A stretch of DNA of 10,983 nucleotides from Gemmatimonadota bacterium (GTDB lineage: Bacteria > GCA-2686955). Both the position numbers and the translations under genes were made by a program. Location: contig NYZA01000016.1 in assembly GCA_002686955.1 (NCBI GenBank), forward strand, positions 1-10,983, in the 5' to 3' direction. The notes under the pieces were generated by a model. The model was not told where the DNA came from, did not search any database, and worked only from the letters and a program-made list of their open reading frames with translations. The number at the start of each line of letters is the position of its first letter. The stretch's first letter is position 1. This document shows, piece after piece, positions 2,280 to 10,866 of this stretch.

Positions 2280-2831
2280 ATGCGAATGATGCTCCTCGGT
2301 CCGCCAGGTTCGGGAAAGGGAACACAGGCAGAGTATCTGATCGATCGATACCGAATTCCCCATGTTGCCACCGGTGACATGTTGAGGGCCGCGGTTCGAG
2401 AAGGCACAGAGCTCGGCAATCGGGCAAAGGCGATCATGGATCGTGGCGAGTTGGTGCCCGACGATCTGGTAATCGGAATGTTGATGCAGCGGCTCGCGAA
2501 TGAGGATGCGGAAGAGGGGTTCATCCTCGACGGCTTTCCTCGCAATACCGCGCAGGCGCGGGCGCTCGATGCGCAGCTCGAAGACCGCGGTCTCGGGCAT
2601 GTCGTCGCCCTGGAGGTTCCCGAAAGGGAGCTCACGAAACGAATGCTCGGTCGGGGCCGTTCAGACGACACGGAAGAAACCGTACGCAACCGTCTGACGG
2701 TCTACCACGACATGACCGTGCCTCTTTTCGAGTACTACGAAAAGGCAGGAATCCTGAGACGGATCGATGGGTTCCAGAGCATCGAGGATGTGGCCGCGAG
2801 TATCGTGTCGGCGCTGGAGTCCACTGGGTGA
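2280..2831 (+). CDS. adk: Adenylate kinase, short-lid form
   Basis: Adk interconverts AMP plus ATP and two ADP in the cytoplasm. The P-loop is GPPGSGKGT (residues 7-15), followed by the AMP-binding helices (HVATGDMLRAAV) and the ILDGFPRN segment. After RMLGRGRSDDTEETVRNRL the protein goes straight to the C-terminal helices. The ~30-residue LID insertion of E. coli-type enzymes is missing, so at 183 residues this is the short form known in several phyla. I chose ATG 2280 over GTG 2277 because GGAG (2269-2272) is 7 nt away and MRMMLLG matches the usual MR-hydrophobic start. Its stop overlaps the map GTG start (GTGA). Confidence 0.96.
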   Translation: MRMMLLGPPGSGKGTQAEYLIDRYRIPHVATGDMLRAAVREGTELGNRAKAIMDRGELVPDDLVIGMLMQRLANEDAEEGFILDGFPRNTAQARALDAQLEDRGLGHVVALEVPERELTKRMLGRGRSDDTEETVRNRLTVYHDMTVPLFEYYEKAGILRRIDGFQSIEDVAASIVSALESTG

Positions 2832-3601
2832 TCACGCTGAAGTCCGACCGAGAGATCGAGCTGATTCGTAAGAACGGCCGCATCGTCGCGAATACACTCG
2901 CGCTGATGCGCCGTCACGCCGCGCCCGGTGTCACGACGAAGGAGCTCGATGGGATCGCGGAGGACTACATCCGTGGAGAGGGCGCAGTCCCGAGCTTCTT
3001 GGGCTACGGGGAGCCGCCCTACCCGGCGGCGATCTGCACCTCCGTCAACGAGGCGGTGGTTCACGGGGTGCCCGACGGTCGAGCTCTTCAGGAGGGCGAT
3101 ATCGTCGGAATCGACGTGGGTGCCTCATCGGGCGGTTTCCACGGGGACGGAGCCGCGACGCTGCCGATCGGCCGGATCGATGATGAAACAGGCAGGCTCC
3201 TGGCGGCCACGCAGGCGGCCCTCGCCGCGGGAATCGCCAAGGCACTTCCCGGTGGACGCCTGGGTGATGTCTCAGCGGCGATTCAGGGCGCGGCCGAGGA
3301 CGCGGGCTTCTCCGTCGTTCGGGCGCTCGTCGGTCATGGCATCGGCAGAGAGATGCACGAGGCGCCACAGATTCCGAACTACGGAAGAGCTGGTCGAGGT
3401 GTTCGTCTCAAGACCGGCATGGTGCTGGCACTGGAGCCGATGATCAATATCGGCACCTACGAAGTGGAGCTGCTCGATGACGAGTGGACGATCGTTACGG
3501 CGGATCGGACACTGTCGGCCCACTTCGAGCATACCGTCGCGATCACCGAAGACGGGCCGGTGATCCTCACCGTTGCCGATCCGGAGTTCCTGGACCAATA
3601 G
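2828..3601 (+). CDS. map: Type I methionine aminopeptidase
   Basis: This enzyme removes the initiator methionine from nascent proteins and is a two-metal hydrolase. All catalytic residues can be placed on the 257-residue frame: metal ligands D96, D107, H170, E203 and E234, and substrate histidine H79. They lie in IDVGASSGGFHGDG, GHGIGREMHE, LALEPMI and HFEHTVAI. Numbering is within one residue of the E. coli enzyme, so it is a plain type Ia protein without an N-terminal zinc-finger extension. The start is GTG 2828, overlapping the adk stop, with GGAG at 2816-2819. The stop is TAG at 3599-3601. The infA frame follows in the same reading frame. Confidence 0.96.
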   Translation: MITLKSDREIELIRKNGRIVANTLALMRRHAAPGVTTKELDGIAEDYIRGEGAVPSFLGYGEPPYPAAICTSVNEAVVHGVPDGRALQEGDIVGIDVGASSGGFHGDGAATLPIGRIDDETGRLLAATQAALAAGIAKALPGGRLGDVSAAIQGAAEDAGFSVVRALVGHGIGREMHEAPQIPNYGRAGRGVRLKTGMVLALEPMINIGTYEVELLDDEWTIVTADRTLSAHFEHTVAITEDGPVILTVADPEFLDQ

Positions 3602-3618
3602 GCAGCATCTACCCGGGC

Positions 3619-3623
3619 GGAGG
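3619..3623 (+). promoter_or_regulatory. Strong Shine-Dalgarno (GGAGG) pointing at an ATC codon for infA
   Basis: A perfect GGAGG, continuing as GGAGGAAAG, lies 18 nt after the map stop. Eight nt downstream is ATC at 3632, in frame with IF-1. No ATG, GTG or TTG in that frame lies between the map stop and the conserved IF-1 domain. This site is the main evidence for the infA start proposed here. Confidence 0.6.
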
Positions 3624-3631
3624 AAAGCGTT

Positions 3632-3946
3632 ATCGGCAAGCGAGGCTATAATCGCGGTCGAAATCCGAAGAAGAAAAAAGGCGCGGCCGCGCAAGGCACT
3701 GGAACGGAAGAGACCGGCGCAAGAAAAGTCGGCAAGCAAGGCGCGATTCAGGTAGAAGGAACGGTTCTCGAACCTCTTCCGAATACGATGTTTCGAGTCG
3801 AACTGGAGAATGGACACGTCGTGCTTGCGCACATATCCGGAAAGATGCGGATGTACAACATCCGTATCTTGGTCGGCGACAAAGTGACCGTAGAGCTCTC
3901 GCCCTACGATTTGAGCCGAGGACGCATCGTCTATCGTTACAAGTAG
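3632..3946 (+). CDS. infA: Translation initiation factor IF-1, apparent non-canonical ATC start and basic N-terminal extension
   Basis: The frame ending at TAG 3944 encodes an unmistakable IF-1 OB fold: [40 protein letters not shown], then [22 protein letters not shown]-1 binds the 30S A site and, with IF-2 and IF-3, controls initiation fidelity. From the map stop (3599-3601, same frame) to the internal ATG at 3788, inside the OB fold, there is no ATG, GTG or TTG. The best start is ATC 3632, 8 nt after GGAGG, giving 104 residues against the usual ~72. The extra ~38 residues are basic and low-complexity ([19 protein letters not shown]). The canonical Met position aligns with a GTC codon at 3728, which has no convincing ribosome binding site. 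ATT 3746 is another candidate. A base error is possible. Identity is certain; the start is not. Confidence 0.9.
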
Positions 3947-3972: not shown

Positions 3973-4089
3973 ATGAAGGTTCGGCCTTCAGTCAAGAAAA
4001 TGTGTGAGAAGTGTCGAATCATCCGACGCCGCGGAGTGGTGCGGGTGATTTGTCCAGCCAACCCCAGGCACAAACAGCGCCAGGGTTGA
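3973..4089 (+). CDS. rpmJ: Large ribosomal subunit protein L36 (bL36), zinc-ligand form
   Basis: This 38-residue gene begins [14 protein letters not shown] and ends NPRHKQRQG, which is diagnostic for L36. It binds 23S rRNA near the peptidyl transferase region. The four zinc ligands are all present (C11, C14, C27, H33), so this is the zinc-binding form. The ribosome binding site GGAGGA (3959-3964) is 8 nt before the ATG. The position between infA and rpsM is the standard one. Confidence 0.96.
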
Positions 4090-7505: not shown

Positions 7506-7580
7506 TCCCCGGTGGCTCAACGGCAGAGCGGGTGACTGTTAATCACTAGGTTGTAGGTTCGAATCCTACCCGGGGAGCCA
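7506..7580 (+). tRNA. tRNA-Asn (anticodon GTT)
   Basis: A full cloverleaf can be drawn. The acceptor stem is TCCCCGG (7506-7512) with CCGGGGA (7570-7576), then discriminator G and encoded CCA (7578-7580). The D stem is GCTC/GAGC. The anticodon stem is GGTGA/TCACT around the loop CTGTTAA, with anticodon GTT at 7538-7540. The T arm is GTAGG-TTCGAAT-CCTAC. The anticodon reads AAC/AAU (Asn). It lies 87 nt after rplQ, with no clear promoter of its own, so it may share the operon transcript. Its 3' end also encodes, on the other strand, the tail of a recombinase remnant. Confidence 0.96.
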
Positions 7581-8109: not shown

Positions 8110-9393
8110 TCATTTAGGCTGGAGCATGGGCTCGACGCAAACCTCGCACGAGAGCGACCGATTGGCGGACATGCGGGCCAGCCTGGCGTCCTCCCGGGCA
8201 GTCTGGAGCTGGCTGGGAACATGGCCTCCGGTCCCGAAGTAGATCTCATCGGGTGTCTGGCCTTGGAAGGCAGAGTGCGTAATCTCGCCGTTGTGGGCCT
8301 CGACGTAGAACTTCACGAGCCTGGACACGGTTTGGAAGCTGTCCAGGGAGTGGAGGAATAGATGTTGGTGTTTCAGCTGCCGCCACCAAACCTCGATCAT
8401 CGAGTTCGAGAACTTGATCTCCGTGAACGCGAGGAGGCGGCGAAGGAGGCCGGACTCGATGAGCTCGTCAACTTGGGCGTTGACGTTCTCGACTCCTTGG
8501 TCCGCGATCACGCTCGGTGGGCCATCTATGGCTGACCCGGCCTTGGCCGCGTTGGGCAGGATGGCGACGGTATTCCCGACCGCGAATCGTTCGGCGACCC
8601 GGAAGGCCAGGATCCGCCTCGAGAAGTTGTCGATTACCGCATGGAGATAGACCCGGGTCCCGTCGAGCAGCCGGATGACGGTGTTGTCGATGTGCCACGC
8701 TTCATTGGGTCGTGTAGTCCGGAGGCCGATCTTCGGCTTTTCGGGGTGAATGCGTCGCCTTGGTCGGCGCCATCCGCGATCTCGGACGAGTCGGTACCAG
8801 GTCGAGGGTGAGGCGAATACTCTCCCGAGTCGCTGGGCAAGGACGGCCAGGGGGCCGGTCGGGACATGGCGGTAGTCGGGCGACAGGGCCATCTCCTGCC
8901 CGGTCGCCACTTCCTCGGCCGTGAGCTGGGTGGGCGAGGACCGTGGGCAGCTGGACCGATCCTCGAGTTGGCAGCCAGCCTGGGCGCGACGCCAGGCGTG
9001 GTATCGGGCCGGCTAGATCCCCAGCACCCGCAGAGTGGCGCGCAACGGGAGGGCCTCCCCAGCGCGGTCGACGGCATCCAGGATCCTGCTCTTCGCTGTA
9101 CCGTCCGGGACGGCACGGCAGCCGGCGAGCCGGACCACGACGAGCAGGAGGCGCGCGACTGCCCCGAGCCTCTCGACCCTCCGCGTCAGCTTGATCACCT
9201 CTCGCTCCAGCTCCAGCCGGGTGAGGTCGAGAATGTCCAGGCTCACGACCTCCTGGGGCGCGCGGGCAATCCAGCCGGCGGCTGTGGATCGAGGCACGCC
9301 GATCTTCGTGGCGATGCTCAGGTCGCCGGTCCGGTGGACGAGGTCGCGGAGCCGGTGGTCGTAGGTCTTCTGGACGTGGGTGGAGTTGGCCAT
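8110..9393 (-). pseudogene. IS transposase (HTH plus rve integrase core), interrupted by an in-frame TAG
   Basis: The - strand frame from ATG 9393 begins MANSTHVQKTYDHRLRDLVH with a helix-turn-helix (LSIATKIGVPRSTAAGWIAR) and a basic helical region. It reaches TAG at 9013-9015 after LPLRATLRVLGI. The same frame continues without a shift: PARYHAWRRAQAGC, HVPTGPLAVLAQRLG, then the integrase core. Counting from the next ATG (8910), the catalytic residues are D75 (WHIDN), D137 (IADQGVEN) and E173 (NSMIEVWW), a D,D35E spacing. The rest ends QTPDEIYFGTG plus a short tail, with TAA at 8110-8112. The TAG falls where relatives I recall have Ser, so TCG to TAG is the simplest event. TAG ends seven host genes here, so it is a true stop. 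Confidence 0.85.
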
Positions 9394-9519: not shown

Positions 9520-9834
9520 CGCAATGATCGGGGGAGAGGCGATCCGGCGAGAGAATCGAGAGAAGAGAGGGGCGACAGTGCTGGCGTGTTGGCTACACTG
9601 AATGGCGAAAAGCCGGTTTGGAGTGCCTATCCGCTACGCAAGCCGACCTACGGTCCGCTCGAGGAAGCGTGGGGGCCCAGGGCGGAAGTCCCAAAAATGG
9701 CCTCTTTGGCGGCCAGGCCACCGTTCAACGCTGGGGGAGTCTGAGACGAGCTCTTCCGGCCAGAGCTTGATGCGCAACACAATCCTTGCGTGGAGCCCTT
9801 TCATCTTGAATCTGTTCACGCGCTTGGAGTTCCA
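9520..9834. other. Unassigned accessory DNA, no recognisable gene
   Basis: This 315-bp stretch lies between the IS and the NHL-repeat gene. Open frames exist on both strands: - strand 9634-9819 with 61 codons, and a + strand frame ending at 9744. None matches a family I recognise. Next to the IS on the - strand the frame reads RRIASPPIIAEL. Joined to the left-flank WRAEQEG, this could be decayed recombinase, but the match is too weak to claim. No tRNA, terminator or clear promoter is seen. Confidence 0.5.
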
Positions 9835-10866
9835 ATGAAGTTGTCCGCAGTCGCTGTTGCGTATATTTGCGGCGTGCCGCCGGTATGGGGCTGTATGGAC
9901 ACGGCGAGAGACCCTGCCGGGCTCGCTGCTGAAGGACCGGGGCGGTCAGCAGTCGAAAGTCTGCCAGAGAGCTACGAATTCATGTTGGCGTGGGGTGAGC
10001 CAGGAGACGAGCCGGGGCAGTTTCAAGCGGTCAATTCGATCGCCGTCGCTCCGGATGGTACGATCTACACTGGCGAGCTGCACGGGCTGCGCATTCAGCG
10101 GTTCACCAGCACCGGGGTGTTCCTGGACAGCTGGGGCGAGCCAGGAGAGGAGCCTGGCCGCTTTGTCGGTATCAGGGGGCTCACGGTTGCGCCGTGGGGG
10201 GACGTTTATGTCAGCGATGTTCACCCTGGAACTGGTGAGCCGGCACGGATCCAAGTTTTCTCCCCTGAAGGGGAGTTCATCCGCTCGTTCTGGCAGGCAG
10301 GCGATGGCCCCGATGATTTTCACATGAACTGGGGCCTCGAAATAGGGCCGGACGGCCTCCTTTATGTGACCGATTTGAATCGCGGGGTACTGGTCTTCAC
10401 GAGACAGGGAGACTTTCACTCGCACTGGCTCTACGAGCCACCTCTTTCCTCCCCCAGCGACATCGCCTTCGGCTGGGACGCAGCGCTTGCGATGGACGTC
10501 GCGTACATCCACGCCCGCGGACCGGTGAAGTACGAACCTCTCGGTGATCTTCTTCTCGATGGCTCTGGGAGCGGCTACTCAACGCTGCATATCGCGACCG
10601 ACAACAACGACGATATCCATGTGCTTCGCTGGTCGGGTCCATGGCACATCGAGAAGCGGGATTCCCAATTTGATCTGCTCGCACTCTTTGGGGGGCACGG
10701 GACGGCGCCAGGCGAATTTCTAGACATTGCTGGCCTAGCTGTAGACGACTCTGGATATGTCTACGCTGGAGACGTAACGCTCAATCGCATCCAGAAGTTC
10801 CGCAAGATTCCGGAGACGAGCATCGCTCAAACGAGTTGGAGCACGCTCAAACGCAGTAAACACTGA
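9835..10866 (+). CDS. NHL-repeat six-bladed beta-propeller protein, possible lipoprotein
   Basis: The frame encodes 343 residues from ATG 9835, which has GGAG (9826-9829) 5 nt upstream. The frame is open back to 9790, but the earlier ATG lacks this site. Repeating blades carry the NHL pattern of glycine turn, PG-x-F, then hydrophobic-x-V-x-P-x-G-x-hydrophobic-Y. Examples are GEPGDEPGQF/SIAVAPDGTIY (~54-78), GEPGEEPGRF/GLTVAPWGDVY (~101-125), AGDGPDDF/LEIGPDGLLYVTD (~155-180) and GTAPGEF/GLAVDDSGYVYAGD (~289-313). The middle (~200-280) is less regular. The N-terminus MKLSAVAVAYICGVPPVWGC suggests export; C20 could be lipidated, though W18 fits a lipobox poorly. Such propellers bind ligands or proteins, and some are lyases; no function can be given. 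It is unrelated to the ribosomal cluster. Confidence 0.8.
   Translation: MKLSAVAVAYICGVPPVWGCMDTARDPAGLAAEGPGRSAVESLPESYEFMLAWGEPGDEPGQFQAVNSIAVAPDGTIYTGELHGLRIQRFTSTGVFLDSWGEPGEEPGRFVGIRGLTVAPWGDVYVSDVHPGTGEPARIQVFSPEGEFIRSFWQAGDGPDDFHMNWGLEIGPDGLLYVTDLNRGVLVFTRQGDFHSHWLYEPPLSSPSDIAFGWDAALAMDVAYIHARGPVKYEPLGDLLLDGSGSGYSTLHIATDNNDDIHVLRWSGPWHIEKRDSQFDLLALFGGHGTAPGEFLDIAGLAVDDSGYVYAGDVTLNRIQKFRKIPETSIAQTSWSTLKRSKH

Follow-up and report, generated by a model that had tools for sequence, protein, structure and literature searches.

The gene for initiation factor IF-1 (infA) in a ribosomal-protein cluster of a draft genome (G000, catalogued as a Gemmatimonadota bacterium) from a little-known bacterial phylum is likely to start at an AUC codon at position 3632. 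It is likely, too, that this codon lowers the output of IF-1 and that infA, together with an AUC-started infC (the gene for IF-3), is under feedback from start-codon proofreading. The cluster, which reads rpsE-rpmD-rplO-secY-adk-map-infA-rpmJ-rpsM-rpsK-rpsD-rpoA-rplQ, was analysed in a window of 10,983 nucleotides, by which we mean the whole stretch of DNA under study. The features of the infA locus are as follows.

2828..3601, + strand: map (methionine aminopeptidase), with a GTG start and the stop TAG at 3599-3601; gene order and GTG start are the same in the second genome, G001
3619..3623, + strand: Shine-Dalgarno (SD) sequence GGAGG of infA, 8 nt before ATC, with the same spacing in G001
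3632..3634, + strand: proposed AUC start codon of infA, invariant in both genomes
3635..3745, + strand: basic, Gly-rich segment extending the N terminus of IF-1, specific to the lineage and predicted to be disordered
3728..3730, + strand: GTC (Val33), the counterpart of the initiator Met in alignments with ordinary IF-1s; Val in G001 too; no SD
3746..3748, + strand: ATT, opening codon of the OB core and the next AUN codon shared in frame, with a weak AAGG 4 nt upstream
3746..3946, + strand: OB-fold core of IF-1 with the stop TAG at 3944-3946 (TIGR00008, PF01176, confident beta-barrel model)
3788..3790, + strand: first ATG in frame, located within the OB fold and lacking an SD; not a plausible start
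3973..4089, + strand: rpmJ, the gene 3' of infA, with an ordinary ATG start and a homologue in G001

The product of this frame is a bacterial IF-1. It scored 122.5 bits against the curated infA equivalog model TIGR00008 (cut-off, 61) and 99.9 bits against PF01176, and it fell below the cut-offs of both the eIF-1A model (25.9 bits; cut-off, 102.9) and the aIF-1A model (21.5 bits; cut-off, 108). The conserved residues of the OB-fold core are present, the neighbourhood map-infA-rpmJ-rpsM is that of bacterial infA, and the window's copy was the only infA found in G000. Outside the ribosomal genes, the window contains the following features.

7506-7580: tRNA-Asn(GTT), after rplQ
8110-8910, - strand: integrase-core transposase ORF (rve/DDE)
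9013-9393: second ORF beside the transposase
9790-10866, + strand: NHL-repeat protein (PF01436)

The interval 8110-9393 has the appearance of an insertion element adjoining the ribosomal cluster.

The preliminary description of this DNA had reported that the IF-1 frame, open from the in-frame map stop at 3599-3601 to the TAG at 3944-3946, lacks a canonical start before the OB fold. The translation bore this out: between 3599-3601 and 3788, a position already within the fold, the frame contains no ATG, GTG or TTG, and the translation of 3599-3946 ends in RIVYRYK. The perfect SD described 8 nt before ATC 3632 was likewise found, at 3619-3623. A fusion of Map to IF-1 by readthrough of the map stop was also considered and rejected: that stop is not in the IF-1 frame in G001, so the readthrough arrangement is not conserved.

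Within the phylum, the comparison was made between two genomes, G000 and G001, which belong to the same family and to different genera; both are draft bins of ~84% completeness. In a tree of map, rpsM and rpsK, the window and the G001 locus (L002) formed one clade, inside a group that mixed Gemmatimonadota with Krumholzibacteriota sequences. G001 carries GGAGGATAGCGTTATCGGC at the place of GGAGGAAAGCGTTATCGGC in the window. The layout GGAGG-8 nt-ATC-GGC is thus common to the two genomes, the block being nearly invariant, and the first six codons (G000/G001) are ATC/ATC, GGC/GGC, AAG/AGG, CGA/CGT, GGC/GGT and TAT/TAT. A search for an ordinary ATG or GTG in relatives, proposed with the original observation, was run on G001 alone and found none before the OB fold, the first canonical codon there being a GTG that falls within the fold's first strand. 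In the stretch from the upstream in-frame stop to the OB fold, the two genomes share no AUN or NTG codon other than ATC 3632. The earlier proposal of AUC 3632 as the infA start gains support from this conservation, and the base error that had been entertained as an alternative is rejected, since the layout recurs in another genus. The start site at AUC 3632 is therefore well supported by comparison of the two sequences, from which we infer initiation at AUC in the cell.

Further comparison of the two genes indicated that the infA frame below the ATC is diverging as a coding sequence. In the extension, which has 11 K/R in 38 residues with the start included, 19 of the 36 aligned residues are identical, nine changes are synonymous, and gaps comprise whole codons; differences fall 15/11/20 across the three codon positions of the 36 aligned codons. 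The OB core, judged by the same comparison, is under strong purifying selection (61/66 residues identical, 38 synonymous changes, position differences of 6/3/39). An AlphaFold model gave pLDDT below 50 at residues 9-32 and a confident OB-fold beta-barrel behind them. GTC 3728 is probably a lost ancestral start codon, and the simplest history consistent with the alignment is that this start was lost and the frame became extended upstream to the SD-led AUC, adding the basic Gly-rich segment. Long, mostly Lys/Arg-rich N-terminal extensions were also seen on unrelated bacterial IF-1s (L115, L116, L120, L169 and L170), which suggests that such tails evolved repeatedly.

AUC does not serve as a general start codon in G000, because the operon neighbours have canonical starts (as do the other genes of the infA operon in G001) and the 285 kb of G000 that were scanned showed no enrichment of SD-led AUC. 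In that sequence, GGAGG lay 6-9 nt upstream of ATH at 128 of 19,760 triplets (0.65%), a rate at which a single GGAGG-ATH pairing at the right place is unlikely to arise by chance. GGAGG-led ATC codons without a canonical alternative were no commoner than other codons so placed, and a recognisable product followed in only one of six such ATC cases, namely, infA. The output of a naive gene finder run on G000 consisted mostly of shadow frames and was left out of further analysis. Searches of the infA and infC leaders against Rfam gave no match, one tRNA being the only family found. Local RNA folds at the infA start differed between G000 and G001, with no conserved structure; in the G001 model, local structure may hide the infA SD. 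The 16S rRNA was found in neither bin, and hence the anti-SD was not seen. A scan of viral contigs for the infA start block found none, as expected.

The parallel with infC, drawn as an analogy when the frame was first described, proved stronger than claimed, since infC has an SD-led AUC in both genomes. The infC start region of G000 reads CACAAGGAGG-CCAACC-ATC-AGA-CGA, i.e., AAGGAGG-6 nt-ATC-AGA, and that of G001 reads CATAAGGAG-TGCGATC-ATC-AGA-AGA, i.e., AAGGAG-7 nt-ATC-AGA. No canonical start was observed between the infC SD and the IF3_N domain in G001. G000 has an ATG seven codons below the ATC, without an SD and not conserved, so the infC AUC in that genome rests on SD position and conservation. 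From these comparisons, the genes of both proofreading factors, infA and infC, appear to begin with AUC in this phylum.

In order to place these starts among those of other bacteria, we surveyed 169 infA loci (L002 and 168 from outside the phylum), and the SD and codon were scored by one scheme for infA and infC. The infA start was canonical at 148 loci, unclear at 17 (best canonical start ATG in 16 and GTG in 1, with a weak SD), CUG at three and AUC at one (L002). An SD-led non-canonical start was thus found at 4/169 infA loci, the CUG cases all being from Actinomycetota, compared with AUH starts at 20 of 31 infC loci, where ten were canonical and one unclear. Non-canonical starts thus predominate at infC and are exceptional at infA. 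As distant phyla have ordinary infA starts nearly throughout, AUC on infA is a lineage-specific state. A pattern search of 386 genomes for ordinary infA genes started by AUH found none, a weak negative given that the pattern recovers just 9 of 88 known infA genes. As a separate observation, infC without a canonical start and with an SD-led ATA, ATT or ATC was seen across roughly two thirds of diverse phyla and most of the Acidimicrobiales (L193-L221, L257-L275).

The CUG cases of the survey were L043, L082 and L087, and the search was then extended to the order of the genome carrying L087 (order of G386, identified as Acidimicrobiales from the title of a member), with a sample of 30 infA loci (L225 and L228-L256). 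At 27 of the 30, a CTG stands behind AGGAG(G) at the usual IF-1 start position; the other three are L248, which has TTG; L254, where ATC follows a weak SD; and L249, whose site is displaced, with CTG a few codons farther up. Some of the 30 have a canonical codon higher up in frame, and more than half are without any. At the same loci, rpmJ starts with ATG, GTG or TTG in 28/28 cases and rpsM with ATG in all 13 recognised cases. Elsewhere in the phylum of the Acidimicrobiales, infA starts are mostly TTG, GTG or ATG; one further infA in that phylum (L279) has no canonical in-frame start and looks as though it begins with GTA behind AGGTGG, just upstream of the IF-1 core. Acidimicrobiales infC mostly has an SD-led ATA or ATC with no canonical start nearby. 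The Acidimicrobiales genes therefore resemble the window's infA in their conserved, SD-led non-canonical start, in the normal starts of the sampled rpmJ and rpsM, and in an AUH-started infC; they differ in that CUG occupies the usual IF-1 start position and there is no long N-terminal extension. The CUG form is of separate origin, in another phylum, and from the distribution of these codons infA appears to have gained a start codon of the kind that IF-3 rejects at least twice. The occurrence of such infA codons in two lineages whose infC has them too favours a link to proofreading and is not proof of it.

Apart from AUG, GUG and UUG, start codons are discriminated against by IF3, and IF1 backs this fidelity function, mainly at subunit joining (PMC4611024). 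Under the reading that we prefer, infA would be translated from AUC 3632, positioned by the strong SD, to give an IF-1 with a 38-residue segment before its OB-fold core. AUC would be among the triplets rejected by IF3 with the help of IF1, so IF-1 would be expected to be made in smaller amounts than the ribosomal proteins of its operon, and infA would be sensitive to IF3 and, by synergy, to IF1. More IF1/IF3 activity would then mean less initiation on both infA and infC. This feedback loop on infA is plausible by analogy with infC. A wider version can be put forward more tentatively, and we regard it as possible rather than probable: infA and infC would form a coupled autogenous circuit in which both genes start with AUC and both products together reject AUC, so that start-codon stringency sets its own level; the Acidimicrobiales would have a separate CUG version; and the basic tail of IF-1 may sharpen start checking, as the eIF1A tail does.

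It could also be that AUC is the start and merely lowers IF-1 output by a fixed amount, for stoichiometry in a ribosomal-protein operon, with no feedback. This accounts for the infA sequence as well as feedback does: infA is flanked by map and rpmJ in a cluster of ribosomal-protein genes, a weak start codon behind a strong SD makes a simple attenuator, and in S. aureus the non-canonical starts of cvfC1 and ccpN are reported to be conserved and to limit initiation (PMC13009471). It leaves unexplained why the recurrent carriers are the proofreader genes infC and infA, and we judge it rather unlikely.

The alternatives that move or remove the AUC start fare worse. Initiation at GTC 3728 (GTT in G001), the ancestral start position, would yield a normal-length IF-1 with the segment above it as leader, and the exact alignment of Val33 with the initiator Met of ordinary IF-1s speaks for it. 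No SD precedes this codon in either genome, however, GTC and GTT are poorer starts than AUN, and the 32 codons above it stay in frame with whole-codon gaps and synonymous changes below a nearly invariant GGAGG-8 nt-ATC block; such a start is very unlikely. Were translation to begin at ATT 3746, where the OB core opens, the start would still be AUN, a codon that both genomes have with AAGG shortly before it, and the product would be a short IF-1. That SD is weak and, at 4 nt, too close, the product would lack N-terminal residues found in nearly all IF-1s, and neither the GGAGG-ATC block nor the coding-like divergence of the extension would be explained, which makes this start highly improbable. 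An error in the assembly or in a base, or decay of this infA with a working copy elsewhere, might be suspected from the draft state of both bins (~84% completeness) and from an apparent single-base indel elsewhere in the G000 assembly (L183), near the 5' end of a pfkA-like (phosphofructokinase-like) gene, where the frame shifts just before GGGDAPGLNA through sequence error or decay. Given an independent genus with the same infA layout, strong purifying selection on the OB core and no second infA found in G000, we consider this scarcely credible.

If infA is truly like infC, then start-codon stringency would be set by feedback on two factors and not one. The AUC and CUG lineages would be natural tests of start-codon discrimination by IF1 in cells. 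Genes with such starts may also be missed or mis-started by annotation restricted to ATG, GTG and TTG.

The closest known systems include infC, the textbook gene repressed by its own product through a bad start codon, which in E. coli is AUU. Start-codon discrimination by IF1 is better established in vitro than in vivo, and the in vivo evidence for its action on AUN codons is weaker than that for IF3. In S. aureus, infC has an AUA start, which likely allows the gene to autoregulate as in E. coli (PMC13009471). The window's infA resembles these genes in that it encodes a fidelity factor and has a conserved AUN codon behind a strong SD, with no canonical start before the domain; it differs in that the gene is infA, whose product checks start codons mainly with IF3, at subunit joining (PMC4611024).

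In the mainly open-access literature searched, a bacterial infA with an AUC or CUG start was not found described, the nearest case being the chloroplast infA of Chlorella and tobacco, which has a functional UUG start (Hirose et al. 1999, cited in PMC9845219). This is likewise an IF-1 gene with a weak start codon, and UUG strongly limits translation there. UUG nevertheless belongs to the canonical class spared by IF3 (PMC4611024), whereas AUC and CUG lie outside it. With respect to the extension, the N-terminal tail of yeast eIF1A touches tRNAi, mRNA and rRNA and influences the choice of start site (PMC5756025). The window's IF-1 is like eIF1A and aIF1A in having a disordered basic tail, in its case by prediction, before the same OB fold. 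It is unlike them in that it scores far below the cut-off of the eIF-1A profile, and the tails are likened in character only; basic extensions of other kinds are carried by other bacterial IF-1s as well (L115, L116, L169 and L170).
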